DNA of 64,000 nucleotides, taken from positions 124,001 to 188,000 of the forward strand of contig NZ_JABFCZ010000001.1 in assembly GCF_014692675.1 (NCBI RefSeq), given 5' to 3'. Both the position numbers and the translations under genes were made by a program. This DNA is from Roseibium aggregatum (lineage in GTDB: Bacteria > Pseudomonadota > Alphaproteobacteria > Rhizobiales > Stappiaceae). Below are positions 3,804-19,947 of this stretch, one piece after another. Each line of letters opens with the position of its first letter. Within the stretch, counting starts at the first letter, position 1. The notes beneath the pieces are model-generated. The model saw only the letters and a program-made list of their open reading frames with translations, had not been told where the DNA came from and did no database searches.

Positions 3804-4425
3804 TGATTCCTTTAGAAGACCAATAGTTGTCACCCGGGAATGAGAAAATCAATCGACAGATGATCTCTTCAATCCAGGCGCGACATGTCTCATCCCCTGC
3901 GTTCGGCTGCCGGCTTCATTTCAGAAGTCTTTTTTACGCCTTTGACCCACGGACGAAAAAGCTTCCGACGTGTATGCACAGTCACCGACCGCCGCAAGCA
4001 CTTTACCAATCAAAAATGATTGCAGGCTGAAACAGCCGGAGACACGGGATGTCGGTATCTGTATTTCGCCGGCGCAGGAAATGACATGCGCTCTGATACA
4101 TCGCGGCTTATCAAGGATTTATGACAGGAAAGGCTCAAGATATTCGTGCGAAGGCTTACAGCTGACGCCCCAGTGTCTTATATAGAAATTTGTGCGCGCC
4201 GCTGGTTGGGTGGTATGAGCACGCGATAATCCCATATCTCTGAATGAGCATATCAAATATGCTTGGTCGCAGCTTACTGCTAGCCATAGCAATTCTGCAC
4301 TTGCGACGAATCAGTAGTTTTTACAGGGCAACAGTTTTGAAATGAAAGCCCTCGATTATCAGTGGTTGAGATGATGAGACTTGCACTTTCCATTGTAAGG
4401 ATTAACATCTTCTGGGGAGTGATTG
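3804..4425. other. Gene-free AT-rich stretch upstream of the toxin-antitoxin-like module
   Basis: About 620 bp with no convincing coding frame on either strand. Base composition drops toward AT from about 3.85 kb and stays low through the next two genes. It must hold the promoter of the FabMG-like gene (reading left) and that of the MerR/DUF433 gene (reading right), but I cannot assign exact promoter elements. No inverted repeats or insertion-sequence ends were seen. Confidence 0.6.
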
Positions 4426-5070
4426 ATGGACAAGCGCGATTCTGAGACGATCGTTTCAGCGTTTACCGAAGAGCAAGTTGAACGTCTTACTGGGATCAGT
4501 AAGCGTCAACTACGTTATTGGGACCGAATAAATTTCTTCGCTCCCAGCATGGGCTTCGAAGACCGCAACTTGCCCTATAGTCGCATTTATTCTTTTCGCG
4601 ATATCGTATGCCTCAAAGTTTTGGATAGACTTCGCAATGAGGCCAAGGTGTCTTTAGCCCATTTGCGAGGGGTCAAGGATAAACTCTCACATTTAGGCGA
4701 TGACCTCTGGTTAAAGACGACTCTTTATGTCCTCAACAAAAAGGTCGTGATCGATAACCCAGAGACATCCGCGAAAGAAGAGGTTGTTTCCGGACAAGGC
4801 GTGTTTCAAATACCTCTAAAAATCGTCACCGGAGACCTGAAAAATGCCGTCTTACAATCAAGGAAACGTGACGATTCCGACATAGGCCATTTTGAAAAGA
4901 AAAAAGGAATTGCGAGGAATCAATTGGTCATTTCGGGCACTCGTATTCCGGTCCGCAGTATAAAAGCTTTTGCCGAAGCTGGATATTCCGTAGCTGAAAT
5001 CCTGAGGGAATATCCCACGCTCACAGAAAAAGACGTAAAAGCTGCAATAGAATATGAAGAAGCGGCTTGA
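4426..5070 (+). CDS. Antitoxin-like protein: MerR-type HTH fused to DUF433
   Basis: A 214-aa protein. Residues about 12-70 form a MerR-type winged helix (FTEEQVERLTGISKRQLRYW, then YSRIYSFRDIVCLKVLDRLR). Residues about 158-205 form a DUF433 domain (VISGTRIPVRSIKAFAEAGY, then AEILREYPTLTEKDVKAAI). DUF433 proteins are typical antitoxins of VapB45-like type. The fusion suggests autoregulation by the MerR domain and toxin binding by the C-terminus; the role is inferred from family and neighbour. ATG is preceded by GGGGAG; an in-frame TTG lies one codon earlier. Codon use is clearly more AT-rich than the surrounding genes, suggesting acquisition. The stop overlaps the next start. Confidence 0.8.
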   Translation: MDKRDSETIVSAFTEEQVERLTGISKRQLRYWDRINFFAPSMGFEDRNLPYSRIYSFRDIVCLKVLDRLRNEAKVSLAHLRGVKDKLSHLGDDLWLKTTLYVLNKKVVIDNPETSAKEEVVSGQGVFQIPLKIVTGDLKNAVLQSRKRDDSDIGHFEKKKGIARNQLVISGTRIPVRSIKAFAEAGYSVAEILREYPTLTEKDVKAAIEYEEAA

Positions 5071-5477
5071 CGGGATCTAAAACAACCCTACGCGTTTTGT
5101 TAGATGCTGGCGTTCCCGCATCAGTCGGGAGAGCATTTATTGATGCAGGGCATTTCGTTATTTACCACAATGATGTTCTTGCTGAAAAAACACCTGATGA
5201 TGTCGTATGCGCAGCTGCGCTAAGTAACAACGCTATTTTGGTCGCTGTAGATGGCGACATGAAGCAGTTCGCAAAGCAATACGGCGGCCAAAGCGCAAGA
5301 GGAAAGAGATTTGCGAATTTGAGCATAATTCGACTTCGCTGTAATGAAGTACTTGCTTCAAAAAGAATTTCTCAAGCAATGTCATTGATTGAACACGAAT
5401 GGGATTTTTCTATATTAAAGAAAGCAAGAAGAATGTGGGTAGACATAGCCGCTCACAGCATACTTACCAATAGATGA
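5067..5477 (+). CDS. DUF5615 PIN-like toxin candidate
   Basis: A 136-aa protein starting LRVLLDAGVPASVGRAFIDA after a short lead, with the acidic positions expected of a PIN-like fold: D near residue 13 (VLLDAG), D about 45 (TPDDVV) and D about 63 (AVDGDMKQF). DUF5615 proteins are usually paired with DUF433 antitoxins and are proposed RNases; nuclease activity here is inference. Translation starts at TTG, which overlaps the antitoxin stop codon (TTGA), so the two are coupled. Low GC content matches its partner. No RNA target can be read from sequence. Confidence 0.75.
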   Translation: MTGSKTTLRVLLDAGVPASVGRAFIDAGHFVIYHNDVLAEKTPDDVVCAAALSNNAILVAVDGDMKQFAKQYGGQSARGKRFANLSIIRLRCNEVLASKRISQAMSLIEHEWDFSILKKARRMWVDIAAHSILTNR

Positions 5478-5555: not shown

Positions 5556-6914
5556 TCACCGCCCCGCATTCGCACGAAACTCCTGCCAGATCCGGCGGCC
5601 GGACTGCTGCAGGGCGTCGCGTTGGGTGCGCGCCGGGGCGCCGACCAGTTGGCCGTCCCATTTGCGGATCCTGCCGTCGATCAGGACCGTGTCCACGTTG
5701 GCGATGCCGGCGTGGAACAGGATTGCGGGCACGGGGTCCACGACCGGGAACATGTTGAGCCGGCCGCAGTCCAGAAGGACGATGTCGGCCTTCTTGCCCG
5801 GGGTCAGCGAGCCGATCCGGTGGTCCAGCCCGAGCATGCGCGCGCCGTCGATGGTCGCCCACTGCAACGCCTCGCGGCTCGGCACGGTGATGCTGTCCGG
5901 GCAGGTTCCCTTTTCGGCCAGGGAGACGAGATTGTCGCAATGGCGAGCCGCCTGCAGGGCCACGCGGGTGACGGAGAACATGTCGCCGGTCATGGAGCTT
6001 TCGATATCGGAGCCGAGCGAGATCCGGCCGCCTGCCTTGCGCAGCTGGGTGGTCAGCGGGTCGCCGAAGCCCATCTGCAACTCGACCTCCGGCGTCAGCG
6101 TGAAGCTGACGCCCCGATCCACCAGCAGCTTCAAAAGGTCGTCGTTCAGGATATTGCCGTGGACGATGTTGATATGGGGGCCGAGCAGGTCCAGGTCGGC
6201 GAGCCGTTCGAAACCGTCCGGTGTCAGGAACTTGCCGCTGACATGCATCGAGGCGACGAGCCCCATGTCCTTCGCAAGACGGAAATCGGCTTCGCAGACC
6301 TCCCAGACGCTCATCTGCGGGCCGAGGATCGCCAGTCCCATGGTCACCAGGGCCTCGTCGTCAGACAGGCGGCCTTCGCGCAGGCGCCGGACTTCGGCGA
6401 CGGGCATTGGCAGTTCGGAGAAATGCTTCTGCCCCGGCTTCGGATCGGGCTTGGGCGATCCGTGCAGGAAGACGGCCCGGATGCCGGACGCGACCAGTCC
6501 GTCGATCGCGGCGTCAGTGTGGTCCGGCGTCGGGTTGTTGTGGCACCAGTCGGCAAGGGTCGTCGTGCCCGACGAGATCTGGTTCAGGGCGCCGAAATGG
6601 TTGGCGATGCGAATGTCGTCCGGCCGGAAATACCCGGCGAGTCCCGCGTGCATGGCCCGCAGGTACTCTGAGATCGTCCAGTCGGCCGCCACACCCCGCA
6701 AGCCCGTCTGCCAGGTGTGGATATGCGCGTTGACGAAGCCCGGCATCGCGATCCGGCCGGCGCCGTCGATGACCCTGACTTCCTCGGAAACATCGATATG
6801 CGGGGCGACCTCCAGGATCCGGTCGTCCTCGATCAGGATCGACCCGGTGGTGAGATCCCCGATCGTGTCGTCCATGGTGACGACGATGGCATCCCGGATC
6901 AGCGTTTTCGTCAT
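5556..6914 (-). CDS. Metal-dependent amidohydrolase, ATZ/TRZ-type
   Basis: A 452-aa cytosolic amidohydrolase of the ATZ/TRZ-like branch (deaminases and chlorohydrolases of heterocycles). The metal-binding set is visible: HIH in MPGFVNAHIHTWQ, His in SMHVSGK, His in IVHGNIL, and Asp in SLGSDIES, plus the family motif TPEVELQMGFG with its glutamate. The C-terminus carries the usual GSLTPGKKADIVLLD strand. It is the last gene of the catabolic operon, 9 bp after the TRAP permease gene, so it probably acts on the imported compound or an intermediate. Whether it deaminates or opens a ring cannot be decided from sequence. Confidence 0.85.
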   Translation of the reverse strand: MTKTLIRDAIVVTMDDTIGDLTTGSILIEDDRILEVAPHIDVSEEVRVIDGAGRIAMPGFVNAHIHTWQTGLRGVAADWTISEYLRAMHAGLAGYFRPDDIRIANHFGALNQISSGTTTLADWCHNNPTPDHTDAAIDGLVASGIRAVFLHGSPKPDPKPGQKHFSELPMPVAEVRRLREGRLSDDEALVTMGLAILGPQMSVWEVCEADFRLAKDMGLVASMHVSGKFLTPDGFERLADLDLLGPHINIVHGNILNDDLLKLLVDRGVSFTLTPEVELQMGFGDPLTTQLRKAGGRISLGSDIESSMTGDMFSVTRVALQAARHCDNLVSLAEKGTCPDSITVPSREALQWATIDGARMLGLDHRIGSLTPGKKADIVLLDCGRLNMFPVVDPVPAILFHAGIANVDTVLIDGRIRKWDGQLVGAPARTQRDALQQSGRRIWQEFRANAGR

Positions 6915-6923
6915 CGGGCAACC

Positions 6924-8876
6924 TCACAGAAGAACAAGCGCAATCCCGGGAACCAGGATGAGCAGGATAATGAATAGGATCATGGTAACGACATAGGGCG
7001 CCACACCGGCGAAAATATCGCCCAGGCTGGCGAACCCGTCGGGCAGCGAGCCCTTGACGACGAAGACGGACAGTCCGAACGGCGGCGTCAGCAGGCCCAC
7101 CTCCACGGCGATGATGCTGATGATGCCGAACCAGATCGGGTCGCCGCCGAAGGCGCTGATGACCGGCAGGGCGATCGGCAGCACGATCAGGAGAATGGAG
7201 ACGGAATCGAGGATCATCCCGAGCAGGATGACCAAGACCATGTAGGCGAGGCAGAAGCCGATCAGCGACAGGTTGAGCGCGCTGATGAACTCGGTCATCG
7301 AATTGGGGATCGAGGACAGGGCGAGCATCCGCGAATAAAGGCTCGCGGAGATGATCAGGAACAGGATGCCGGCGGTGATGAAGCCGGTTTCCAGCACCAC
7401 GCGCTTCACTGTTTCCCAGGTCAGCCTGCGCCGCGCGGCCGCAATCACATAGGCGCCCAGCGCGCCGATGGCCCCGGCCTCGGTCGGGCTGAACACACCG
7501 CCGTAGATCCCGCCCATGACCAGCAGGATGAGGAAGACGACCGGGGCAAGGTTGCGGCAGATTTCACCGAACGACATGCGCTCGCCGTCAAGACCGGGCA
7601 TCGGGTCGCCGACGAATTTCGGGAAGAAGCTGACGAGCGCAATGTTCAGAAGGCAGAAGCATGCCGCAAGCAGGACGCCGGGCACGATGGCAGCCACAAA
7701 CAGCGCTCCGACCGAGGCCTCGGCGATCAGGCCGTAGATGATCAGCAGGATGCTCGGCGGGATGAGCATGCCGAGAATGGAGGAGCCGGCGACGACGCCG
7801 ACGGCGAAGCGCTTGCTGTAGCCGCCTTCCACCATGGGCGGCACGGCGATGCGGCTGAAGACGGCGGCCGACGCAATGGACGACCCGGTGATGGCGGCAA
7901 AAACCGCGTTGGCGGCCACCGTCGCATTGGCAAGACCGCCGCGGATCCCGCTCAAAAGAAAGACCGCGACCCGGAAGGCGTCGCGGCCGACATCGGCCCG
8001 GTCGAGCACGAGGCCCATCATGACGAAAAGGGGCACGACGCCGAATTCGAAGGAGCGCACGGTGCCCGACGCCGCCAGACCCATGGCGTTGTCGGCGATG
8101 GAAATGTTGCTGCGGATCGCCCAGATCGCGATGAACGACATGGCGATCAGAGAAAACGCGACCGGCATGCCGCAGGCGACCAGCGCGAACAGGCCGGCGA
8201 AGGCCAGAAAGCCCAGCTGGATGCGGGTCAGGTCGCCATAGGCCATGGCCAGCAGGAACAGAATGCAGACGGCGATGAAAACCAGCAGGCCGATGAGCCC
8301 CTGCCGCTGGGCCCGATCGCCGGAGAGGGACCGGATCAGCCCCGCAGTGTTGACGGCAAGAACCCGGAACGCCTCCGCGGCCGCGACGACCGCTCCGAGC
8401 GCGGTCACGAGCTTGAAAGGCCAGAGCGGCATCTGGAAGGCGCCGACCGCACCAGAATATTCGCCGTCTGCCCAGGCGGACCAGGCATCGTCGCCGAGCC
8501 AGGTGACGATGCGCGCCAGAAGCAGGAAGGCGATGCAATAGTAGATCGCCTTGGTGCCCTCGGCGAGAACCGGCCTCCGCTCCTCCCATGCCCCCATGAT
8601 GAAGTCGGTGGCGATCATCTTGCCGTTGCGGATGGCGGCGCCAAGCTGGCAGAAGATACAGGCGACGATGGAATAGGCGACGAACTCCGCCACGCCGTTG
8701 AGCGGCAGGGACAGGAACTTCCGCGCCATCACGTCGACGAAGATGAGCAGCATGAAGCTGGCGACGACGGTCGAGCCCACGGCGGTGAAGCCCGTGGACA
8801 GGGCGGCAAGCGCATCGTCCGCCTTTTTCCAGAGGGAGCCCCCTTTGCCGGCGGCCTCGGTGTTTTCACAGGTCAT
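6924..8876 (-). CDS. TRAP transporter permease, fused DctQ-DctM subunits
   Basis: A 650-aa inner-membrane protein. The first ~170 residues form the four-helix DctQ small subunit (GFTAVGSTVVASFMLLIFVD, SLPLNGVAEFVAYSIVACIF). A linker leads to the DctM large subunit with about 12 segments and family motifs such as GMPVAFSLIAM, GSSIASAAVFSRI and LTPPFGLSVFV. DctQM proteins drive sodium- or proton-coupled uptake of substrates delivered by a periplasmic binding protein, here the product of the preceding gene. No strong ribosome-binding site precedes the ATG, consistent with lower expression than the binding protein. A strong hairpin lies between the two genes. Confidence 0.92.
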   Translation of the reverse strand: MTCENTEAAGKGGSLWKKADDALAALSTGFTAVGSTVVASFMLLIFVDVMARKFLSLPLNGVAEFVAYSIVACIFCQLGAAIRNGKMIATDFIMGAWEERRPVLAEGTKAIYYCIAFLLLARIVTWLGDDAWSAWADGEYSGAVGAFQMPLWPFKLVTALGAVVAAAEAFRVLAVNTAGLIRSLSGDRAQRQGLIGLLVFIAVCILFLLAMAYGDLTRIQLGFLAFAGLFALVACGMPVAFSLIAMSFIAIWAIRSNISIADNAMGLAASGTVRSFEFGVVPLFVMMGLVLDRADVGRDAFRVAVFLLSGIRGGLANATVAANAVFAAITGSSIASAAVFSRIAVPPMVEGGYSKRFAVGVVAGSSILGMLIPPSILLIIYGLIAEASVGALFVAAIVPGVLLAACFCLLNIALVSFFPKFVGDPMPGLDGERMSFGEICRNLAPVVFLILLVMGGIYGGVFSPTEAGAIGALGAYVIAAARRRLTWETVKRVVLETGFITAGILFLIISASLYSRMLALSSIPNSMTEFISALNLSLIGFCLAYMVLVILLGMILDSVSILLIVLPIALPVISAFGGDPIWFGIISIIAVEVGLLTPPFGLSVFVVKGSLPDGFASLGDIFAGVAPYVVTMILFIILLILVPGIALVLL

Positions 8877-8920
8877 GGATCGTGGAACGCATCTGCCCGG
8901 GGTCCGATTAGAGAAGACGG

Positions 8921-8946
8921 CGTCCCCGTCCGCTTGGACGGGGACG
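8921..8946 (-). promoter_or_regulatory. Intercistronic hairpin between binding-protein and permease genes
   Basis: A perfect 11-bp stem (CGTCCCCGTCC / GGACGGGGACG) with a 4-nt loop, in the 88-bp gap after the TRAP binding-protein stop codon. It is not followed by a U-run on the minus strand, so it is more likely an mRNA-protecting or partially attenuating structure than a full terminator. Such elements raise binding-protein output relative to permease; function here is inferred from position. Confidence 0.7.
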
Positions 8947-8964
8947 CGATGTCTGCGGCAAGCC

Positions 8965-10050
8965 TTAAATGTTAGCCGACCAGTCGCGCAGCGGCTCGGC
9001 GCCCTGCGCCTTCACCGTTTCCATGAAGGCCTTCATGATGTCGCGCGCCGGTACGCCGGGCTTCTCCGTGGCCTCGACCCAGGCCTTGCCCAGGTCCGGC
9101 ATGCGGTCGACCCACTCCTTCTTCTGCTCCATGGGCATGTCGGAGACATGCGCGCCTTCCTTTTCGAAGGCTTCGAAGACCTGCTTCTCGCGCGCGACGA
9201 TCAGGCGGGCGTTTTCCTCGGAGTATTCGCCGCCGAGTTCCGCCAGCACCTGCTGCACGTCTTCGGGAAGCGACGCGTAGGTATCGGCATTGATGCCGAA
9301 GCCGCCGAAGGTCAGCGGGCCGGTGTCGACCCGGGTCACATAGGGCGCAACCTCATGCAGCTTCAGCGGATAGGCGCCCGTGGAGATCAGGAGCACGCCA
9401 TCGCCCACACCGGTCTGCACCTGGCTGTACATCTGGGGAATGCCGGTTGCGACCAGGGACGCACCGAGCGGTTCGATCCAGGGCGCAAGCGACACCCCGC
9501 CGAGGATCTTCAGGCCTTCCAGATCGGAGAGCTTTTCGATCGGCTTCTTGGTGTAGAGGCTGTAGCCGTCGGAGCAGCAGGAGCCGAAGAAACGGATCTT
9601 CTGCTTGGCCCATTCCTCCTTCATCGCCGGCTGTTCGGCGTTGAGCAGGTTCATGGTGTTGATCGCCTGCGCCACCGTCTGGGTGGCGAAAGGCGTCGAA
9701 TACATGATGTTCTGCAGGGGCAGGCTCGCCGGTTCGAACAGGGAGCCGATCCAGCCCATGTCGGTGAGCTGCGTCGTCACTGCCTCGAGGGTTTCATTGA
9801 AATTGTAGAGCGTGCCCCCGAACGCTTCGGTCCAGTCGATCCGGTAGTCGGAGCCCCTCTCCTCCAGAAGCGCGTTCGACTTGTCGACGATGACCGTTTT
9901 CAACGGGCCGACCCACGGAATGATCAGCGGATGGCTGGATGCGATCGTCAGCGGAATGGTCTTTTGCGCAAACGCCCGGCTCCCTCCCAGAAGCGGTAGT
10001 GCTGTTGCCGAGATCATCGCCGTGACAGCGGTCCTTCGCGTAATCTTCAT
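8965..10050 (-). CDS. TRAP transporter periplasmic substrate-binding protein (DctP-type)
   Basis: A 361-aa exported protein. The ATG is set by AGGAACAGGAA just upstream. The N-terminus KITRRTAVTAMISATALPLL ends at AFA, a good signal-peptidase site; the twin arginine suggests Tat export is possible. The mature part shows the DctP pattern: IASSHPLIIPWVG, a QLTDMGWIGSLFEPASLP hinge region, and SDLEGLKILGGVSLAP in the second lobe, where family members carry a carboxylate-binding arginine; I see LKILGG instead of the classic LKxR, so the ligand may not be a simple dicarboxylate. It delivers substrate to the DctQM permease encoded next. Confidence 0.88.
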   Translation of the reverse strand: MKITRRTAVTAMISATALPLLGGSRAFAQKTIPLTIASSHPLIIPWVGPLKTVIVDKSNALLEERGSDYRIDWTEAFGGTLYNFNETLEAVTTQLTDMGWIGSLFEPASLPLQNIMYSTPFATQTVAQAINTMNLLNAEQPAMKEEWAKQKIRFFGSCCSDGYSLYTKKPIEKLSDLEGLKILGGVSLAPWIEPLGASLVATGIPQMYSQVQTGVGDGVLLISTGAYPLKLHEVAPYVTRVDTGPLTFGGFGINADTYASLPEDVQQVLAELGGEYSEENARLIVAREKQVFEAFEKEGAHVSDMPMEQKKEWVDRMPDLGKAWVEATEKPGVPARDIMKAFMETVKAQGAEPLRDWSANI

Positions 10051-10215
10051 TTCCTGTTCCTCCCAGAATTTTAGATTTATTCCTCCGTAGTTCTGACGAG
10101 ACCCACCTTCCAAATTGGCTAGTCCAGAATGAAATCAACCTGCCGAAGCGTCAAGAGCGGTTATGCCAATTGAATTCCGGCTGCCCTGACGCCTTCGGTT
10201 CGAAGTGCTTACGCC

Positions 10216-11076
10216 TCAGTCGAAATTGTTCGGCCGTCCCTGGCGCACGTAGTCGACGACGGAGGCGATGCCCTGCTTGGTATGGATCGCCTTCTTCTTG
10301 GCGACATGGCCGAACATCTGGATGCCGAAACCGCCGTCGAGATCGTTGACGATGCGCTGCTTCCACGGACGGCGCACGATCTGGGTCGTCAGACGGCGGG
10401 TGGTCCGCGGCTGGGTCATGATGTGGTCGGCGATGGTGAACGCCCGGTCGATCAGCTGGTCGCGCGGCAGGACCTCGTTGACCATGCCCCATTCCAGCGC
10501 CTGCTGCGGCGTGATCGCCTGGCCCGTCAGGAGCGCATAGGCCGCCCGCTTCACGCCCAGAAGTTCCTGGAAACAGTTGTGAATGCCGTCCGCCGGGCAG
10601 GAGCCGATGTCATAGTGCAGGTCGAAGATGGTGGCATCGTCCGCAGCCAGCGAGATGTCGCACATCAGGACGATTTCGGAGTGGAAGCCCGGGCCGTTCA
10701 TGAGGCCGATCGTCGGGATCTCCAGATCGTTGATCAGCGAGCTGACGTTGATGCGCCCGTCCTTGTAGGCATATTCATACGCCCAGTATTCCATGTCCTC
10801 TTCTTCCAGCGCAAAACCGTTCGGATCGGAATCCATCATGAATTCCTCGCCGGAACCGGTCAGGATCGTGATCTCGTTTTTCGGATCGGCGCCGACGACC
10901 TTGAGCATCTGGCCGAGTGCCCGGTGGTTTTCCACGCTGAGCTGGATCGGGCCGCCGAGCGTATGGGCCTCGACCAGCAGGACGCCGTCGTCGCGGCGGC
11001 TCATCTTGAAGAAGTCCTTGAAGGTCTCCTTGTATTCGTCGAAGTCGGGTGTGGATACGAACTGCTGAAGAGACAC
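10216..11076 (-). CDS. Crotonase-superfamily hydrolase resembling 6-oxocamphor hydrolase
   Basis: A 286-aa crotonase-fold protein starting at GTG, ten bases after GGAGG. It lacks the paired glutamates of enoyl-CoA hydratases. Instead it carries His132 (GFHSEIVLMCD), His154 and Asp163 (DLHYDIGSCPADGIH), with the His-to-Asp spacing of nine residues that I remember for His145/Asp154 in 6-oxocamphor hydrolase, a C-C bond-cleaving beta-diketone hydrolase. The N-terminal DDGVLLVEAHT and C-terminal QALEWGMVNEVL also match that type. I infer retro-Claisen cleavage of a (possibly cyclic) beta-diketone rather than CoA chemistry. It sits mid-operon in the catabolic cluster. Confidence 0.72.
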   Translation of the reverse strand: MSLQQFVSTPDFDEYKETFKDFFKMSRRDDGVLLVEAHTLGGPIQLSVENHRALGQMLKVVGADPKNEITILTGSGEEFMMDSDPNGFALEEEDMEYWAYEYAYKDGRINVSSLINDLEIPTIGLMNGPGFHSEIVLMCDISLAADDATIFDLHYDIGSCPADGIHNCFQELLGVKRAAYALLTGQAITPQQALEWGMVNEVLPRDQLIDRAFTIADHIMTQPRTTRRLTTQIVRRPWKQRIVNDLDGGFGIQMFGHVAKKKAIHTKQGIASVVDYVRQGRPNNFD

Positions 11077-11115
11077 TGTTTCCTCCTGTCTTTTCTCACC
11101 TGTTGCCGTGGGCGA

Positions 11116-12012
11116 TCATTCGGGTTTGATGGTCATGCCCGCGGACTCGGCCTGGACCTGGAACAGGGACAGGAAGTCGTCGTCGCGGTGGCCGCGTCCG
11201 ATGGCGTTCTGGATAAGCTGCATGACGCCCGCCCCGACGGGCATCGGCATCTCCTCTTCCCGCGCGATGGCAAGCCCGAGGTCGAAATCCTTGCGCAGGA
11301 GTTCGGTGGTGAACGTCGGGGTCCAGTCGAGCGACAGCATGTCGGGCGTGCGTTTGCGCACCCAGTCGCTGGCAAGCACCGTGTTGTTCAGGAATTCCAG
11401 AAATGCCGAGCGCGGCACGCCGGACTTTTCCGCCAAAGCCGTCACCTCGCTCAGGGACTGCACGATCATGCCGAGATAGAGGTTGTGGCAGATCTTGACG
11501 ACGCGCGCCTGCTCGCCCTCGCCGACCCAGACCGAGGTCTTGCCGATGGCATCAAGGTATGGCCGTGCGGCCTCATAGGTCGCCTTCGGGCCGGAGGACA
11601 TCAGGATCGACTGGCCTTCCGCCACCACATGGGGATTGCCGCTGATCGGCGACGCCAGGAATTCGACGCCCTTTTCGCGGGTCAGCCGCCGCATCTCCGC
11701 CGAAGCCTCCGCGCTGACGGACGAACAGTCGACGATGATCCGCGGCAGCTTCGGCGCGGTGAGCAACCCGCCGTCGCCGGCAACGACCTGTTCCAGATCC
11801 TTCGTCGTCGACACCATAATGAAGACAACGTCGGCCGCCGCCAGATCGTGGATCGTGTCGGCGACCTTCGCCCCGGCTTTGGCCAGATCGTCGGTCTTGG
11901 ACCGGGTCCGGTTCCAGACCGTGACGTCATTGCCTGCCCGGATCAGCCGGCCGGCCATCGCGGCGCCCATTCGCCCGGTGCCGAGCCAGCCAAGTGTTAG
12001 TTCGGAACTCAT
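11116..12012 (-). CDS. NAD(P)-dependent beta-hydroxyacid dehydrogenase-like oxidoreductase
   Basis: A 298-aa cytosolic protein of the 3-hydroxyisobutyrate/tartronate-semialdehyde reductase family. The N-terminal Rossmann motif is GWLGTGRMGAAMAGRLI; the substrate-side signature is DCSSVSAEAS, and the likely catalytic lysine lies in RVVKICHNLYLG about residue 170, followed by the all-helical C-terminal domain. The start is set at the ATG before SSEL, with AAGGAA nine bases upstream; another ATG three codons earlier is possible. It lies between the transketolase and crotonase genes, so it probably reduces or oxidises an intermediate of the same pathway. The substrate is unknown. Confidence 0.85.
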   Translation of the reverse strand: MSSELTLGWLGTGRMGAAMAGRLIRAGNDVTVWNRTRSKTDDLAKAGAKVADTIHDLAAADVVFIMVSTTKDLEQVVAGDGGLLTAPKLPRIIVDCSSVSAEASAEMRRLTREKGVEFLASPISGNPHVVAEGQSILMSSGPKATYEAARPYLDAIGKTSVWVGEGEQARVVKICHNLYLGMIVQSLSEVTALAEKSGVPRSAFLEFLNNTVLASDWVRKRTPDMLSLDWTPTFTTELLRKDFDLGLAIAREEEMPMPVGAGVMQLIQNAIGRGHRDDDFLSLFQVQAESAGMTIKPE

Positions 12013-12050
12013 CTCCGCCATTTCCTTTTCTGTGCCATTCGCCTGCCGGC

Positions 12051-13055
12051 TCAAACCGGCGCGTATTCGCCCGGAGCCGCGTCGACGACCGGTGCGGCGG
12101 GTGCCGCACCCGGCCGGGACAAAGCGGACCAGACCGCATCGATGATGTCCTGCGTGCCAAGCTTGTATTTCTTGAAGAGCGGCGGCGCGGTGCGTGCGCC
12201 TTCCGCAAAGGTGTCGCGCAGGCCGATCCGCCGCAGCGGGCAACCGATGCCGGCCTCCGCCATGACTTCCGCGACCGCCGATCCGAGCCCGCCGACGATC
12301 GTATGGTTTTCCGCCGTCACCACGAGCTTCGAGCGACGCGCGACATCCAGGACGGTGCCGCTGTCGAGCGGCTTGATCACCGGTACGTTGACGACCCGGG
12401 TCGAGACGCCGCCGGCATCGAGCGCCTCGGCGGCTGCGATGGCCGCCGACAACATCATGCCGTTGGCGAGGATGGAGGCCTCGTCGCCCTCCTTGATGAT
12501 CTGGGCCCTCGTCATGGAGAATTCGTGGTCGTCATCGAAGATCACCGGGATCTCGCCGCGCTTCAGGCGCAGGTAGACCGGGCCCGGATGATCGACGATC
12601 GCCGGCAGAGCCTTGCGGATCTCGACCGCGTCCGCCACGTCGACAACGGTCATGTTCGGGATCGCCCGCATCGGGGCCACGTCCTCGATGGCCTGATGGC
12701 TCGGACCGCCCGGACTGGAGACGCCCGGCATGAAGCCGACGATGCGAACCGGCAGGTTCGGATAGGCAACCGAGTTCACGATCTGGTCGAGCGGCCGGCG
12801 TGTCGAAAAGACGCCGAAGGAATGCACGAAGGGAATGTGACCGCAGCGGGCCAGCGCGCCGGCCATGCTGACCATGTTGGCCTCGGCCATGCCGGCGTGA
12901 ATGAACCGTTCCGGAAACATGTCCTGGAACAGGTCGATCTCGCACTGGCGGGTCAGGTCGCCGGTCAGGCAGACGATTTCGGTACGCTCGCGCGCCAGAT
13001 CGACCAGCGCCTGGCCGTAGGGCTTCAATACCGTTGCATAGGGACGATTACGCAA
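12051..13055 (-). CDS. Transketolase-like protein, C-terminal (pyrimidine-binding) subunit
   Basis: A 334-aa protein matching the second half of split transketolases: a pyrimidine-binding domain with the catalytic glutamate in HAGMAEANMVSMAGALA, the SSPGGPSHQAIEDVAPMRAI segment, and a C-terminal transketolase_C domain (VTAENHTIVGGLGSAVAEV). Start at TTG, supported by GGAGG six bases upstream and by an 8-bp overlap with the end of the N-terminal subunit gene. With its partner it should transfer two-carbon ketol units using thiamine diphosphate. Residues 310-334 are an Ala/Pro-rich tail beyond the usual fold. Confidence 0.9.
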   Translation of the reverse strand: MRNRPYATVLKPYGQALVDLARERTEIVCLTGDLTRQCEIDLFQDMFPERFIHAGMAEANMVSMAGALARCGHIPFVHSFGVFSTRRPLDQIVNSVAYPNLPVRIVGFMPGVSSPGGPSHQAIEDVAPMRAIPNMTVVDVADAVEIRKALPAIVDHPGPVYLRLKRGEIPVIFDDDHEFSMTRAQIIKEGDEASILANGMMLSAAIAAAEALDAGGVSTRVVNVPVIKPLDSGTVLDVARRSKLVVTAENHTIVGGLGSAVAEVMAEAGIGCPLRRIGLRDTFAEGARTAPPLFKKYKLGTQDIIDAVWSALSRPGAAPAAPVVDAAPGEYAPV

Positions 13056-13845
13056 GACGGGCCTCCAGTTCCGCAACGGCCGCCTCGGCAAGTTCTTCCG
13101 GCAGCTTGATGAAATGCCCGTCCGCGCCTTCGGGTAAGACCGACAGACCGTGTACGGTGGAGGTCCGGCCGATGACCACCGCGGGCCTGCCGGCCTGAAC
13201 CGCCTGGCCCAGCGCCCCGTCGACGGCATCGGCGTCATGTCCGTCCACATCGAACGCCGCCCAGCCGAAACTCTCCCATTTCGCTGCGATCGGCTCGAGG
13301 GTCGTGATGGATGACACCGGGCCATCCACCTGACTGTCGTTGGCGTCGAGAAGGACGGTCAGATTGTCGAGCTTGTTGTGGGCGGCAAAGAGAGCGGCTT
13401 CCCAGAGTTGACCTTCTTCCAGTTCGCCGTCGCTGATGAAGGCAAAGACCCGGCTGTCCGTATTGCCCGCCATTTTCAGGGCCAGGGCAAAGCCGCAGGC
13501 GCCCGACAGACCCTGGCTCAGCGAGCCGCCGGTCAGATCCACCGCCGGCGACTTTTCCGTGCCGATGGCTTCCAGACGGGACCCGTCATGGCCGTAGGTT
13601 TCCAGAAGCGCCTCGTCCAGTTGGCCGATTTCGGCGGCGGCGGCGAAGGCCGCGATGATGTAGTGGCCCGGCGAGATCACGATCCTGTCGGTGTCCGGCC
13701 GGTAATGACGGGCATAAAGGGCTGCGAAAAGTTCGGCCGACGACAGCACCTGGCCGAGGTATCCAAAGCCGTGCGGCGCAACCATTCGAACCGCGCGCAA
13801 GCGCAGCCGGTCCGCAAAGCGACCGAGATCCCTGTTCGGAATCAT
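13048..13845 (-). CDS. Transketolase-like protein, N-terminal (ThDP diphosphate-binding) subunit
   Basis: A 265-aa protein corresponding to the first half of transketolase. It holds GHYIIAAFAAAAE, GGSLSQGLSGACGFALALK and the thiamine-diphosphate motif SDGELEEGQLWEAALFAA with LLDANDSQVDG. The usual GDG is SDG here. ATG is preceded by GGGAGG. It is the first gene of the catabolic operon and overlaps the C-terminal subunit gene. Split transketolases of this kind often belong to dedicated sugar or polyol catabolic routes rather than the pentose phosphate pathway; that is an inference from context. Confidence 0.9.
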   Translation of the reverse strand: MIPNRDLGRFADRLRLRAVRMVAPHGFGYLGQVLSSAELFAALYARHYRPDTDRIVISPGHYIIAAFAAAAEIGQLDEALLETYGHDGSRLEAIGTEKSPAVDLTGGSLSQGLSGACGFALALKMAGNTDSRVFAFISDGELEEGQLWEAALFAAHNKLDNLTVLLDANDSQVDGPVSSITTLEPIAAKWESFGWAAFDVDGHDADAVDGALGQAVQAGRPAVVIGRTSTVHGLSVLPEGADGHFIKLPEELAEAAVAELEARLA

Positions 13846-14167
13846 GATATCCTCCCATTCAAAGTGGATTAGCCACTTTTTCTTTTTTGATAATCGTCCT
13901 GCGCTTCGGCTGTCAATCGGCATTCAATCCCGCAGTGCGGTATTTCCGCTGGAATTGAATACTATTGGCTGCTTTCTGCTATTTTTTAGCTATCAAAAAT
14001 TACGCACGAGAATTCTTCCGGTTCCGCGACCGGTATTGTCCCGACCATCGAGTTGACCGATTTTGCTTAATCGGACAGGCCAATTGTGATCCAATGTCGA
14101 CTTTTCGGCGATCAAGAGGTCGGATTCGGGCCTGAAAACTTGCCTGAAGTCAGGTATGGAGCGCCCC

Positions 14168-14181
14168 AATCTACGTAGATT
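14168..14181. promoter_or_regulatory. Perfect 14-bp palindrome, candidate GntR operator
   Basis: AATCTACGTAGATT is self-complementary over all 14 bases. It lies in the 452-bp divergent intergenic region (13846-14297) between the transketolase operon and the FadR/GntR gene, next to a second inverted repeat. The rest of that region holds no gene that I can support. Confidence 0.55.
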
Positions 14182-14208
14182 CACTATGTGGACAGATGCC
14201 ATATAGTG
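14182..14208. promoter_or_regulatory. Imperfect inverted repeat, candidate operator in the divergent promoter region
   Basis: CACTATGTGG and CCATATAGTG form ten-base arms with one mismatch and a 7-bp spacer. It directly follows the 14-bp palindrome, so two dyads abut in the divergent control region. FadR-subfamily regulators bind such dyads; which of the two is used cannot be read from sequence. Confidence 0.5.
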
Positions 14209-14297
14209 AGATCGATACCGGCCAAGCCACATTGACATTGGTCGGCAGCCGACTATACCGGCATAAGAACAGGTTAGGAGCCATACCGGGGAATTCG

Positions 14298-15080
14298 ATG
14301 GCACGCACGAAGCTGCTTCAGGACAAGCACCTATGGAACGCCATACCGGAGATGGCGGCGGATCGCGAAAACGGACATCCCCTGGCGGCGGAAGACCTCG
14401 CATCCCAGATCCAGGACTTCATCATCGCGCAGAACCTGTCGGAAGGCGCAAGGCTCCCGTCGGAGCGCGACCTCGCCAAGATGTTCGGCACCAGCCGGCC
14501 GACGGTCAGCCAGGCGATCCGGATCCTCGTGGTCAAGGGCCTGATCCAGTCCCGGCGCGGCTCAGGATCCTACGTCACGCGACGGCCCCAGGAGAGCCTG
14601 GCCGCTTCGGTCAACCTGATGCTGGATCTCGACCGGGATTCGGTGCACCACCTCAATGACCTGCGCCTGTGGCTTGAAACCATGGGCATTGTCGAGGCGG
14701 TGGAACGGGGAACGGACGCGGAAATCGCGGCCGGAGAAGCAGCCCTTGAGCTCTTGAAGGAAAGCACCGGCGACATTTCCGCCTGGATGAGCGCCGACAC
14801 CGAGTTCCACTCCACGCTCGTGCGCGCTTCCCATAACCCCTATCTGTCGTCGATCTTCGAAAGCGTGCACACCACGCTGATCGAGTACGAATACCGGGTC
14901 TGGGTCGACAAGGGCACGGTCCCCAAATGGCTGCGGAAAACGGAAGCCGCCGCCGTGACCGCCATCCACGAACCGATCCTGCAGGCATTCAAGAACCGGG
15001 ATGCCGAAGCCGGCAAGATCGCCGTCCTGCACCATCACTACGTCATGGCGCAGCACCTGATCGCCAGCCATTCCGAATAG
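14298..15080 (+). CDS. FadR-subfamily GntR transcriptional regulator
   Basis: A 260-aa regulator. Residues about 28-95 are a GntR winged helix (LASQIQDFIIAQNLSEGARL, PSERDLAKMFGTSRPTVSQA, RRGSGSYVTRR). The rest is a helical FCD effector domain with metal-ligand-type positions: D in SADTEFHSTLVRASHNPYL and His in LHHHYVMAQHL. The start ATG follows GGGGA. It is divergent from the transketolase/TRAP operon and most likely represses it until a pathway metabolite binds. Two dyad sequences lie in the shared intergenic region. Confidence 0.9.
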   Translation: MARTKLLQDKHLWNAIPEMAADRENGHPLAAEDLASQIQDFIIAQNLSEGARLPSERDLAKMFGTSRPTVSQAIRILVVKGLIQSRRGSGSYVTRRPQESLAASVNLMLDLDRDSVHHLNDLRLWLETMGIVEAVERGTDAEIAAGEAALELLKESTGDISAWMSADTEFHSTLVRASHNPYLSSIFESVHTTLIEYEYRVWVDKGTVPKWLRKTEAAAVTAIHEPILQAFKNRDAEAGKIAVLHHHYVMAQHLIASHSE

Positions 15081-15110: not shown

Positions 15111-16196
15111 TCAACGATTTGCGGCCCAAAGCACGTCCCGCGCGATCTGATCGAGCGGGCTGATACGGTCGACCCCGCCGCGCGCGATCGCTTCCTTCGG
15201 CATGCCGAAGACGACGCAGCTCGCTTCATCCTGGGCGATGGTGAACGCGCCGGCCTGTTTCATCTCCAGCATGCCGCGGGCACCGTCATCCCCCATTCCG
15301 GTCATGATGACGCCGACCGCATTGCCGCCGGCCGAACGGGCCGCGGAGCGAAACAGGACATCGACGGAGGGACGATGGCGCGACACCAGCGGGCCGGTCT
15401 TCACCGACACGTGGTAACGCGCGCCCTGGCGCTCCAGCATGATGTGCCGGTCGCCGGGCGCGATCAGCACATGGCCGCGCAGGACCGGATCCCCGTTCTC
15501 CGCCTCCTTGACCGTCACCTCGCACAGGCCGTCGAGGCGGCGGGCGAAGGCGGTGGTGAATTTCTCCGGCATGTGCTGGACGATGACGATGCCCGGCGCG
15601 TTGGCCGGAAGGGTCACAAGGAAATCCTTGAGGGCTTCCGTCCCGCCGGTCGAGGCGCCGACGCAGACCACCATCTCGGTCGTCTTTGCCATCGCCCGGC
15701 CGGTCGGCGGCGGCAGGACCGCATCGGCGGTCAGCTTCTTGCCGTCGTCCGCGCCCGACCCCATACCTGCGCGGGGCCGGCGGCCGCCGACCCGGGCCTG
15801 GGCTGCCGCCTTGACGACGTCGCAGATCCTGAGCGCGGATTCGGCAAGATGGTCGGCGGCGCCGATCTTCGGCTTGACGATGATGTCGACCGCACCCGCC
15901 TCAAGCGCCTGCATGAGGGTCTCGGAGCCTTCGACGGTCAGCGAGGAGCACATCACCACGGGAACGGGCCGCTGCGCCATCAGCTTGCGCAGGAAGGTGA
16001 TGCCGTCCATGCGCGGCATCTCCACGTCGAGGGTGATAACGTCGGGAACCTCTTCCTGGATGCGGCGGGCGGCGACGAAAGGATCGGACGCGACACCGAT
16101 GACCCGGATGTCCGGATCGCTCTCCAGCACGGCCGTCATCGTCTGCCGGACGCTTGCGGAATCATCGATGATCAGGACGCGGACGGACTTGGGCAT
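15111..16196 (-). CDS. cheB: Chemotaxis response regulator protein-glutamate methylesterase CheB
   Basis: A 361-aa two-domain protein. Residues 1-125 are a receiver with DD at 11-12, phospho-acceptor Asp57 ([14 protein letters not shown]) and KP near 109. After a linker, the methylesterase domain has the catalytic Ser in [11 protein letters not shown], His in VQHMPEKF and Asp in [11 protein letters not shown]. It demethylates chemoreceptor glutamates when phosphorylated by CheA, giving adaptation. It is the last gene of the che operon, 142 bp after cheR, so it may also have its own promoter. Confidence 0.97.
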
Positions 16197-16338
16197 TCAG
16201 GACACTCGCGGCAGGACTGCCTCACCCCGCAAGGACCATGACCCGGAGGTCCGGCTTCGGAACGGGCGATTCGGAATCATCTTATCAAATAGACCGCAGC
16301 ACATCGTCGGGCAATGACGCACACGGAAGCCTCATGGA

Positions 16339-17196
16339 TCACAGCCGCTGGAAGACCGTATTGGAGATCATGCGCAGCGGCAGGCCGAAACCCGAAATCG
16401 TCTCCGAATGGCCGATCGTGAGATATCCGCCCGGAGCCAGGCAGTCGACGAGCCTGGAGAGCACCTTTGCCTGCGTCGGCTTATCGAAATAGATGAGCAC
16501 GTTGCGGCAGAAGATTGCGTGCATCGGCTCGGTCACCGGATAGGCGTCATCCATCAGGTTCATGCGCGCAAAGCCGACCCGCGAGCGCAGCCGGGGATGG
16601 ATGCGCATGCAATCCATTTCCGGATCCTTCGGTTCGAGCACATATTTGCGCCGCAGCGAAGCCGGCACCGGCCTCAGCATGCCTGTCGGATAGATCCCCT
16701 TGCGCGCGGCCGCCAGAACATCGGTGCTGAGGTCCGTGGCCAGCACCGAATAGCTGCGGAGCATGCGGTCCTCGACGGTCTCCTCCAGCACCATGGCCAT
16801 GGTATAGGGCTCGGCTCCGGTCGAGCATGCCGCGCTCCAGATCCTGAGATCCTCAACGCCGCGCTCCGCCAGATCGGGCACCATGACCTCGCGGAGTACA
16901 TCGAAGTGCTTGGCTTCCCGGAAGAAGTCCGTCTTGTTGGTGGTGACCGCATCGATGAGGAAAATGGCTTCGCTTTCCAGCCCGTCCTCGTCGAAAAGGT
17001 AGCTGCAATAGTTGGAGAAGGTCGCGATACCCGTCGCCCGCAGGCGGCGGCGAAGGCGTCCCTCCAGCATGGTTTTCTTGGTCGGCGGCATCTTGATGCC
17101 GCTGTAATCGTTGATATAGGCCGCCAGGCGCTCGAATTCCCTGGGCTCCAGATGATCGAACGCCGTCTGGGGAGGAGCAATCTTCTGTCTGGTCAC
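16339..17196 (-). CDS. cheR: Chemotaxis protein methyltransferase CheR
   Basis: A 285-aa SAM-dependent methyltransferase. It has the N-terminal helical CheR domain, then FFREAKHFDVL, the SAM-binding WSAACSTGAEPYTMAMV and RNVLIYFDKPTQ. It methylates receptor glutamates and works against CheB. Start is GTG overlapping the cheW stop codon (GTGA), a coupled arrangement. The neighbouring receptor lacks a C-terminal NWETF-type pentapeptide, so CheR must dock on the receptor body. Confidence 0.96.
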   Translation of the reverse strand: MTRQKIAPPQTAFDHLEPREFERLAAYINDYSGIKMPPTKKTMLEGRLRRRLRATGIATFSNYCSYLFDEDGLESEAIFLIDAVTTNKTDFFREAKHFDVLREVMVPDLAERGVEDLRIWSAACSTGAEPYTMAMVLEETVEDRMLRSYSVLATDLSTDVLAAARKGIYPTGMLRPVPASLRRKYVLEPKDPEMDCMRIHPRLRSRVGFARMNLMDDAYPVTEPMHAIFCRNVLIYFDKPTQAKVLSRLVDCLAPGGYLTIGHSETISGFGLPLRMISNTVFQRL

Positions 17197-17687
17197 GCTG
17201 CTGCGGTATCCCTGGCGGTATTGGCAAGCGTGGAGATCTCGCCTTCCGAAAGCAGGCGGGCCAGGTCGATGATGACCACGAAACCGCCGTCGCGCCTGAC
17301 GACGCCCTCGATATAGCCGGATTGCCAGCGTGTGCCGATTTCCGGAGCGGATTCGATTTCATCGCTGTTGAAGGCGGCGACCTCGAACACCCGATCGGCG
17401 ACAAGACCGAGGGTTAACGTGCGCTCTTCAAGCGGGATGTCGATCACCAGCACCCGGGTGTTCGGCGTGGCGACGGTTGCCGTCATGCCGAGACGCAGGC
17501 GCAGATCGATGACCGGCACCCCCTGGCCGCGCACATCCCGCAATCCCAACATGTAGGCGGGGCCGTTGGGGATGCGGAAACTCTCCTCGTGATCGAGGAT
17601 TTCCCGCACCACCGTGACAGGCACCGCGAAGACTTCCTTGTCGAGGCTGAACGTGACGTACTGGGCTTCGGTTGAAGATGTGGCCAT
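17193..17687 (-). CDS. cheW: Chemotaxis coupling protein CheW
   Basis: A 164-aa CheW-like adaptor (YVTFSLDKEVFAVPVTVVRE, GLRDVRGQGVPVIDLRLRLG, LGLVADRVFEVAAF). It links receptors to CheA. I chose the ATG before ATSSTEAQ, with GGCGAG upstream; a TTG two codons earlier overlaps the receptor gene stop. It is the second CheW in this operon, located between the receptor and cheR genes, and its end overlaps cheR. Confidence 0.94.
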   Translation of the reverse strand: MATSSTEAQYVTFSLDKEVFAVPVTVVREILDHEESFRIPNGPAYMLGLRDVRGQGVPVIDLRLRLGMTATVATPNTRVLVIDIPLEERTLTLGLVADRVFEVAAFNSDEIESAPEIGTRWQSGYIEGVVRRDGGFVVIIDLARLLSEGEISTLANTARDTAAA

Positions 17688-17689
17688 GA

Positions 17690-19408: not shown

Positions 19409-19434
19409 TACTAAAGCCTCCTTCTGGAGAAAAT

Positions 19435-19947
19435 TCAGTTCGCCTCTGCCGCCGGAGCGCGAGAATCCGCTCCGGAAAACAGGGCCTTCAAATTCGGGAT
19501 GATGATGAAATCCGAGCCGCGCTTGACGACGCAGTCGATGTAGTCCGGCCGCCAGCGCATACCGAGGCTGGGCGGCGGCTCGCTCGCCTCCTTCGTCAGC
19601 GTCGTCGTCTCGTTCACCTTGTCGGCACGCAGGCCGACCAGGGTCGGCTCTCCGTCCAGCAGCAACTCGATAACGACGATACGGCTGTCGATCGTGGCCT
19701 CGGCCGCGGGCATGCCGAATGCCAGACGCAGGTCTGCAAGCGGGATGACCTTGCCGCGGAAATTGATGACGCTGGCCACGAAAGGCCTTGCGCCCGGAAC
19801 CGGTGTTTCGGGCAGAAGGTCAAGGATCTCCTGCACGATAACGGCTTCGAGAGCGAAGGTTTCCCTGCCCATGTCGAAGGTCAGCACTTCGATTTCGTCG
19901 GCATGTTTCCAGTGGCCGACGGCCTGTTCGGTTGCGAGTGCGCTCAT
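19435..19947 (-). CDS. cheW: Chemotaxis coupling protein CheW (second copy)
   Basis: A 170-aa CheW-like protein ([55 protein letters not shown]). It diverges well from the other CheW of the operon. The start codon overlaps the cheA stop (ATGA). Two CheW proteins flank the single receptor gene, suggesting mixed or alternative baseplate composition. Confidence 0.94.

Follow-up and report, generated by a model that had tools for sequence, protein, structure and literature searches.

A rare gene cluster of Roseibium aggregatum joining a remodeled split transketolase-fold enzyme to a 6-oxocamphor hydrolase-type protein: a candidate catabolic operon

Gene content of the locus

The window analyzed here is a stretch of 64,000 nucleotides of the Roseibium aggregatum genome (contig NZ_JABFCZ010000001.1, positions 124,001 to 188,000), numbered from its first nucleotide. 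It contains a candidate catabolic operon of seven tightly spaced genes on the minus strand, from position 13845 down to 5556, with a GntR/FCD regulator gene lying divergent from them. This arrangement of seven same-strand genes and a divergent FadR/GntR regulator had been put forward in an original prediction made from the sequence alone. Open reading frames (ORFs), domain matches and the sequence itself bear it out, and the genes and their linkage are firmly established by computation. The idea of a single coregulated catabolic operon is also supported. The gene set recurs in other genomes, partly with a shared palindrome.

The first two genes correspond to the halves of a split transketolase-fold thiamine enzyme, TKN (N-terminal half, 13048–13845; Pfam Transketolase_N, 3.3e-25) and TKC (C-terminal half, 12051–13055; Transket_pyr and Transketolase_C), the latter having a TTG start and overlapping the TKN stop by 8 nt. 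They are followed by HAD, of the beta-hydroxyacid dehydrogenase family (11116 to 12021, or with a start at 12012; NAD_binding_2 and NAD_binding_11), and by CRO, a crotonase-superfamily C-C hydrolase of the 6-oxocamphor hydrolase type (10216–11076; 2e-33 with structure 1o8u). Next come the TRAP binding protein TRAP-P (8965–10050; DctP, 8.9e-24), the fused DctQ-DctM permease TRAP-QM (6924–8876; DctM 2e-79, DctQ 2.4e-12) and AMH, an Amidohydro_1 protein of the NF006056/PRK08204 subfamily (5556–6914; 561.6 bits with NF006056 for a cut-off of 391). All seven are on the minus strand, and the gaps between them, in the order from TKN to AMH, are −8, 29 or 38, 39, 165, 88 and 9 nt. The regulator gene occupies the plus strand at about 14298–15080, and its product combines a GntR helix-turn-helix (Pfam GntR, 1.3e-16) with an FCD domain (1.5e-21), as in FadR-type GntR regulators. 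A candidate palindromic operator, AAGTGGATTAGCCACTT, is located at 13862–13878 (no strand assigned), 16 nt upstream of TKN.

Distribution of the gene set and of a shared palindrome

CRO was used as the probe for relatives, in which ORFs were called with a home-made caller using a GC-position score. Orthologues with 64–90% identity were present in 18 other genomes of the Alphaproteobacteria, Actinomycetota and Acidobacteriota (loci L058–L071, L089–L091 and L095). The complete set of eight genes was found again in Amorphus coralli (L059, identical to L029) and in Histidinibacterium aquaticum (L058). The gene order in Histidinibacterium is that of the window, and in Amorphus it is changed, the regulator being followed by HAD, CRO, TRAP-P, TRAP-QM, TKN, TKC and AMH. 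TKC lies beside CRO in 13 of the 18 loci (10 of the first 14, L058–L071) and elsewhere in the genome in three more cases, namely Enemella L086, L087 in the genome of L069, and L088, with interrupted frames, in the genome of L061. In total, 16 of the 18 genomes with CRO possess TKC. Conserved co-occurrence, the test proposed with the original prediction, thus gave a positive result, and a chance neighborhood was rejected since both the gene set and the palindrome recur. TKN orthologues in the relatives are 56–82% identical to that of the window; among 385 genomes of the class, searched for matches at E 1e-40 or better, no TKN match above 45% identity was seen outside the window's own genome. 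The regulator is present in eight loci (46–73% identity), or in ten of the 18 genomes when L087 and L129 are counted, a lower bound as the genomes were not searched whole. Presence counts are also lowered because several contigs stop near the core (L060, L061, L065, L066, L069 and L095). In a control search of 80 genomes, TKC at 65% identity or more was found in four of five CRO-positive genomes and in none of 75 CRO-negative actinomycetes, where the best match reached 41%; the five positive genomes were hand-picked and four were already known to carry TKC, so that the new information lies in the 75 negatives and in the fifth genome, G1548.

The module is rare and scattered over distantly related bacteria. 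A CRO-like match at E 1e-30 was observed in 20 of 397 genomes of the window's order, with the close form only in the window's genome and in one other (88% identity), judged from its match with L059 to be Amorphus coralli. Besides these two, the order contained 19 distant matches in 18 genomes (33–44% identity, E up to 1e-30), which were excluded from the counts as a different subfamily; TKN and TKC were absent at E 1e-8 from all 18 loci compared (L030–L047, covering every match but that of G310). A scan of a one-genome-per-species collection with two peptide patterns, which was not exhaustive, gave 14 loci (L058–L071), Amorphus among them again. A close CRO was found in four of 394 sampled genomes of the Streptomyces class (E 1e-80, the query's own included), in one of 341 genomes of the Histidinibacterium order, Histidinibacterium itself, and in two of 199 genomes of the phylum of an Acidobacteriales genome, that genome included. 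CRO relatives occurred in 34 plasmid records at E 1e-20, every one below 60% identity, and most of the annotated ones among those listed were labeled enoyl-CoA hydratase/isomerase. The 86% identity between the CROs of the window and of Mycolicibacterium agri suggests that the module moved by horizontal transfer. The phylogenetic trees are poorly resolved, with only three of 16 inner branches well supported for CRO and two of 13 for TKC, and the transfer argument therefore rests on identity rather than on the trees. In the CRO tree, the three alphaproteobacterial proteins from full operons cluster (support 91/85) inside a mostly actinobacterial set, and the alphaproteobacterial L070 stands apart.

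Comparison of upstream regions led to a 17 bp palindrome, AAGTGGMTWAKCCACTT, which is found exactly in the window (13862–13878), in L058 and in L089. Allowing up to three mismatches, 11 occurrences were counted in 22 sequences, compared to three in three times as much Markov-shuffled sequence. In ten of the 22 (the window, L058, L059, L060, L063, L064, L068, L087, L089 and L090), the site precedes the first core gene or falls within the divergent region, and L059 has a second site of this type just upstream of TRAP-P. The consensus was drawn up after viewing the window, L058, L059, L060 and L063, which therefore match it by construction, and the shared-word count also used L064, L071, L087 and L091. 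Only L068, L089 and L090 are independent of the derivation, and all three have the site upstream of the first core gene. That this palindrome is shared by part of the family is firm. Among 14 whole genomes searched at up to two mismatches, eight have the site, and the genomes of the window, Amorphus, Histidinibacterium and G1023 have exactly one, at the operon. Second sites with two mismatches were located between a regulator orthologue (64% identity) and an Amidohydro_3 gene in G805, and about 100 nt upstream of an aldehyde dehydrogenase gene in Streptomyces uncialis (G780, the genome of L064). We consider that AAGTGGMTWAKCCACTT is likely the putative operator of the GntR regulator.

The heptamer CCGGTAT is present five times within about 320 nt (14030–14349) that span the divergent promoter region and the first part of the regulator gene, for a total of 12 copies in the window where 3.3 are expected. 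The repeats were not seen in the corresponding regions of four relatives and were set aside as operator, preference being given to the palindrome common across phyla.

Enzymes, importers and associated genes

Among solved structures, CRO is closest in sequence to 6-oxocamphor hydrolase (2e-33) and to the Anabaena beta-diketone hydrolase (2e-31), with enoyl-CoA hydratases at 8e-17 and weaker. The first 12 Foldseek matches all correspond to one or the other of these two hydrolases, for a model of middling quality (mean predicted local distance difference test score, pLDDT, 68.6). A general enoyl-CoA hydratase was rejected, as CRO is nearest both by sequence and by fold to coenzyme A (CoA)-independent hydrolases. 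Residues H38, H132, H154 and D163, which align with the His/His/His/Asp catalytic set of 6-oxocamphor hydrolase, do not vary in any of the 15 proteins compared. In that hydrolase, the catalytic residues are numbered His45, His145, Asp154 and Glu244, and the number of its His122 is confirmed by the title of entry 1szo. The catalytic motifs are complete by pattern in 18 of 19 proteins, L091 failing one pattern in which a neighboring Pro is Ser. At the place of Glu244, mapped by hand just past the end of the alignment, CRO seems to have Gln253, and this Gln is invariant (15/15). Because of this replacement, CRO is named as being of the 6-oxocamphor hydrolase type and not as a 6-oxocamphor hydrolase. 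Its assignment to this type of crotonase-superfamily hydrolase, with the catalytic residues, is firm. It probably acts on a free 1,3-diketone, a moderately firm assignment from sequence likeness, and the beta-diketone-type C-C cleavage that had been predicted is supported, the two nearest relatives by sequence and fold being beta-diketone hydrolases.

The split thiamine enzyme retains its catalytic Glu and the motif for thiamine and metal, the sequences of the window being SDGExxEG...LDAN and MAEANM, with small variation in relatives. In ordinary transketolases, the His of GHPGG/GHPTS, a second His, the His of HxGL/HCGV and the Asp of GEDG bind the ketol donor, the hydroxyaldehyde and the phosphate. 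Compared to the human enzyme and to a split transketolase, these contacts are replaced in the window, and the replacements are shared by the orthologues (17 of 17 for TKC and 15 of 16 for TKN, where L088 is a fragment). A Tyr within G[FLM]GYLGQ takes the place of the His of GHP, and the region of the next donor His reads AIG[TS]E or SIGTE. In TKC the HxGL/GEDG loop reads MPGxSxPGG. The extended motif G[FLM]GYLGQxLS is found in 15 of 16 TKN proteins, the L088 fragment lacking the region, and GFMPGxSxPGGPSHQA in 17 of 17 TKC proteins. The remodeling of the thiamine site is firmly established by these comparisons. The ketol transfer assigned earlier to this enzyme thus finds no support, several of the ketol-, phosphate- and hydroxyaldehyde-binding residues of ordinary transketolase having been lost. 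A C-terminal tail, G[EDA]Y[AS]PV (GEYAPV in the window), characterizes 16 of 17 TKC proteins, the exception being the interrupted L088. The AlphaFold model of the TKC monomer has a pLDDT of 84.3, but values below 50 at residues 326–333, which the shallow alignment of 15 rows could also explain. Since the tail is conserved yet not predicted to be ordered alone, it may perhaps act as an active-site lid or as a contact in the assembled enzyme.

AMH keeps the COG0402 metal site (HIH, MHVS, VHGN and GSD in the window). The Glu of the HxxE motif is a catalytic residue of COG0402 deaminases; at this place, the window and five aligned relatives read HVSG, HISA, HHSN, HVNY, HANS and HVND, the member from L089 being 7 kb off the core and probably unrelated. 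The names "transketolase" and "heterocycle-type hydrolysis" of the original prediction thus stand as family labels, and the active sites of both enzymes depart from the textbook. Hydrolysis of a heterocycle as such is not supported, as AMH lacks the HxxE Glu and as other hydrolases replace or join it in relatives. The AMH type is found in the window, L058, L059, L071 and L091, Amidohydro_3 proteins in L068, L129 and L132, M24-family enzymes in L063 and L086 (with a fragment in L087), an arginase fold in L065 and a nitrilase-family protein in L069. The importers vary as well. TRAP genes are present in the window, L058 and L059, a peptide-type ABC importer in L132, Liv-type ABC importers in L063 (from Pfam) and L090 (read from ORF starts only) with a second set at L134 in the same genome (binding protein from Pfam), and a sugar-type binding protein or ABC importer in L065 and L066; for the remaining relative loci, no importer tied to the core was noted. 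TRAP-P has a Leu where two aligned solved proteins have Arg (GLKILGG for MEIRGAG), and this Leu is found in the window, L058 and L059, so the predicted absence of the carboxylate-pairing Arg is confirmed in all three orthologues. Because importer and C-N hydrolase vary around it, we infer a constant core supplied through interchangeable front ends.

The solved chains nearest to HAD are 3doj and 2uyy, which we take to be glyoxylate/succinic-semialdehyde reductase and its relative. An aldehyde dehydrogenase recurs in the relatives; its best model is succinate-semialdehyde dehydrogenase (SSADH), at 544 bits and below the cut-off of 646, and orthologues adjoin the core in L088, L090 and L091. As HAD is nearest to 3doj and 2uyy and the dehydrogenase is SSADH-like, the two enzymes could both act on one semialdehyde, a weak suggestion drawn from likeness. 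The operator-preceded aldehyde dehydrogenase of G780 shares 71.5% identity with its counterpart next to TKC in L091, and adjoins genes for a HAD, an E1-type thiamine enzyme pair, an M24-family enzyme, a peptide-type ABC importer, an AMH-family-like protein and an Amidohydro_3 protein. In L063, genes for HAD, an M24 enzyme and an E1 pair (65–72% identical to the Streptomyces pair) are directly upstream of the regulator, TKN, TKC, HAD and CRO. The functional unit seems to extend beyond the operon seen in the window, as relatives add the aldehyde dehydrogenase, the E1-type enzyme and the M24 hydrolase and swap the importer.

The second HAD, M24 and E1 genes of L063 (969–5108) match a separate Streptomyces locus (L130/L132), and two halves of a single pathway may perhaps be joined in this Acidobacterium. 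At L134 (5363–7603), a 746-aa protein fuses the E1 alpha and beta parts of a thiamine dehydrogenase, beside the Liv-type importer and a glyoxalase-fold gene and divergent from the core. In the window, an aldehyde dehydrogenase gene at 780–2225, about 3.3 kb past the operon, is 64% identical to one directly beside CRO in L070 (MarineAlpha12) and could be part of the pathway or unrelated to it.

Proposed pathway, rival readings and known systems

We propose that the operon encodes a substrate-induced, dedicated catabolic pathway running through a free (non-CoA) 1,3-diketone, CRO, the thiamine enzyme and a semialdehyde, a reading to which we give about an even chance. In this model, whose order of steps we infer, the GntR regulator would repress the operon from the 17 bp palindrome until an intermediate binds. 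The TRAP system would import the compound, probably without the usual carboxylate-Arg contact to hold it. AMH, or in relatives also the Amidohydro_3, M24, arginase-fold and nitrilase-family enzymes, would break C-N or similar bonds and so lead to a free 1,3-diketone, probably cyclic. CRO would then hydrolyze a C-C bond of the diketone by a retro-Claisen reaction without CoA, giving a keto acid. TKN/TKC could cleave beside the keto group, with an aldehyde as acceptor of the small acyl or ketol fragment and a semialdehyde acid left over, and these last two elements, the thiamine-enzyme step and its product, are the weak part of the proposal. HAD, with the SSADH-like aldehyde dehydrogenase in several Actinobacteria, would reduce or oxidize the semialdehyde toward central metabolism.

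Several observations weigh against this pathway. TKN/TKC has no equivalents of the donor- and acceptor-binding His and Asp of ordinary transketolase, and the cleavage assigned to it is for this reason a guess. In the window, no gene clearly makes a 1,3-diketone. TKC is missing from two of the 18 genomes with CRO (that of L070, and G1548), which hold the most divergent CROs (64 and 66%), and CRO must therefore have a use without this transketolase. HAD (at least 56% identity) is present in nine of the 18 loci and in 11 of the 18 genomes when L087 and L130 are counted, again a lower bound. The pair of TRAP and orthologous AMH was recovered in just two of the 18. As regards the palindrome, 12 of the 22 sequences have no site at up to three mismatches, including the core-bearing L062, L065, L067, L071 and L091; a reversed-pattern control gives as many hits or more in most of the 14 genomes (eight in the window's genome), so that single weak sites at two mismatches are informative only by their position. 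The second site of G782 is inside an unrelated gene, and three sites of G781 are away from its core operon and from known pathway genes.

The scarcity of the TRAP and AMH pair is the point in favor of an alternative in which only TKN, TKC, CRO and perhaps HAD make up the pathway, with TRAP and AMH as unrelated passengers joined to it in one alphaproteobacterial line. We hold this to be improbable, since in Amorphus the order is rearranged and the same set has nevertheless stayed together, and since amidohydrolases whose best family is NF006056 (386.8 and 409 bits for the cut-off of 391) lie beside the core in L071 and L091. In Streptomyces, moreover, the M24-E1-HAD group, beside the operator-preceded dehydrogenase, has as neighbors an AMH-like protein scoring 378.6 bits, an Amidohydro_3 protein and a peptide-type ABC importer. 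A similarly small likelihood is given to a variant in which the diketone is a six-membered ring bearing hydroxyls, one of them between the carbonyls, derived from a cyclitol (for example an N-substituted aminocyclitol). CRO would then yield a 5-keto-hexonate-like acid with a HOCH2-CO-CHOH- ketol-donor end, from which the thiamine enzyme would take two carbons, leaving a C4 semialdehyde acid; the CRO product would chemically suit a transketolase and the C4 product both HAD and the SSADH-like dehydrogenase. A transketolase mutant giving tartaric semialdehyde reportedly uses 5-ketogluconate as donor. The formation of tartaric semialdehyde by a mutant transketolase, as reported in PMC12016104, is a precedent for such a reaction. 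Against the cyclitol stand the operon's lack of a cyclitol dehydrogenase or aminotransferase, and the fact that the His contacting the C1 hydroxyl of the ketol in ordinary transketolases is not conserved.

Two further readings appear very unlikely. The substrate could be a mycosporine or another vinylogous amide, whose C-N bond the varying hydrolases would cut to give a gadusol-like enolized 1,3-cyclohexanedione that CRO would open. This would account for the alternation of unrelated C-N hydrolases before one CRO, and Amorphus coralli and Histidinibacterium are presumably marine hosts; on the other hand, many CRO hosts are Actinobacteria whose names suggest a soil or gut habitat, no enzyme that would demethylate the methoxy group was noticed, products derived from gadusol would fit a transketolase poorly, and the literature search gave no paper on such a bacterial pathway. 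The cluster could also be biosynthetic, or CRO a C-C ligase like the carboxymethylproline synthase CarB of the same superfamily. CarB (2a7k) is indeed among the Foldseek matches of CRO, at rank 31, and split transketolases occur in some biosynthetic clusters. The hydrolases 1o8u and 2j5g are nevertheless far ahead of CarB by sequence and fold, importers are coupled in several loci together with semialdehyde-type dehydrogenases, and no biosynthetic scaffold enzyme was noticed. Among particular substrates, dimethylsulfoniopropionate was not supported (M24 enzymes at 120.6 and 109.8 bits for a DddP cut-off of 600), and sulfoquinovose, ectoine, tropane alkaloids and myo-inositol were considered and likewise not supported.

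Returning to the proposed 1,3-diketone pathway, the statement that the gene set matches no known pathway was upheld, no characterized cluster with this set emerging from family, structure and literature searches; the literature search turned up no description of such a cluster and, with most subscription papers outside its reach, speaks only weakly for novelty. The enzyme superfamilies are all known, and as far as the searches go it is the combination, the operator and the remodeled thiamine enzyme that are undescribed. A bolder and tentative view, to which we give somewhat less than an even chance, is that of an undescribed pathway traded between phyla, with a free 1,3-diketone as hub. Varied C-N hydrolases and importers would feed different natural products into a core in which a beta-diketone hydrolase is joined by a split thiamine enzyme of a new class, which would no longer be a ketose transketolase and would have a rebuilt active site and a GEYAPV tail ordered only in the assembled enzyme. 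The Anabaena beta-diketone hydrolase is not known to have a natural substrate. As the related CRO belongs here to a conserved regulon that has a candidate operator, its substrate comes within reach through direct screening of the regulator and of TRAP-P. Two testable enzyme classes are also defined, the GEYAPV split thiamine enzymes and the HxxE-less amidohydrolases, whose current names may well misstate their activity.

Outside the operon, overlapping MerR/DUF433 and DUF5615 genes at 4423–5477, just past its end, have a GC content of 0.51–0.54 compared to about 0.64, and our guess is a toxin-antitoxin-like insertion. The segment 2478–3833 matches Pfam FabMG (enoyl-ACP reductase) at 692.8 bits, with no NCBIfam match at E 0.001. 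On the other side, chemotaxis-type genes at 15111–22052 adjoin the regulator (response regulator/methylesterase, methyltransferase, CheW-like, receptor and CheA-like, named from their translations).

The locus can be compared to several known systems. In the sulfo-transketolase pathway, a split transketolase is found with a HAD-family dehydrogenase and without a beta-diketone hydrolase. The system of the window differs from this route of sulfoquinovose breakdown, as its HAD scores 111 bits with the sulfolactaldehyde reductase model, for a cut-off of 348. A transketolase/transaldolase relative is reported in PMC11659671. AMH is above the cut-off of NF006056/PRK08204, a family named "hypothetical protein" with no function attached. 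6-Oxocamphor hydrolase (1o8u, 1szo) and Anabaena ALR4455 (2j5g, 2j5s) share with CRO the superfamily, the fold and the His/His/His/Asp positions, at about 30% identity; CRO differs by its Gln253, apparently in place of the Glu of 6-oxocamphor hydrolase, and, unlike both, has a transketolase pair, an importer and an amidohydrolase as partners. The split transketolase of Carboxydothermus hydrogenoformans (6yaj/6yak) has the two-chain architecture, catalytic Glu and thiamine/metal motif of TKN/TKC, whereas in TKN/TKC the acidic residue of GEDG and the His of HxGL are lost, the active-site region of the N-terminal half is rewritten and the GEYAPV tail is extra. A further likeness is with sister split transketolases (L107, L108 and L110–L115), which are about 39–45% identical to TKN/TKC and share, where compared, the GYxxQ and LPGLTTGYGPSHQ-type active site. 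The sister family, apparently uncharacterized, differs in being not beside CRO, in adjoining an apparent short-chain dehydrogenase, named by eye, in six of seven loci (L110–L115, not L109) and a TRAP permease in four of seven, and in the absence of the GEYAPV tail from the five proteins compared. As these proteins share part of the remodeled site, with an apparent short-chain dehydrogenase and often an importer alongside, there appears to be a broader, unexplored group of split transketolases to which TKN/TKC and the sister family both belong.

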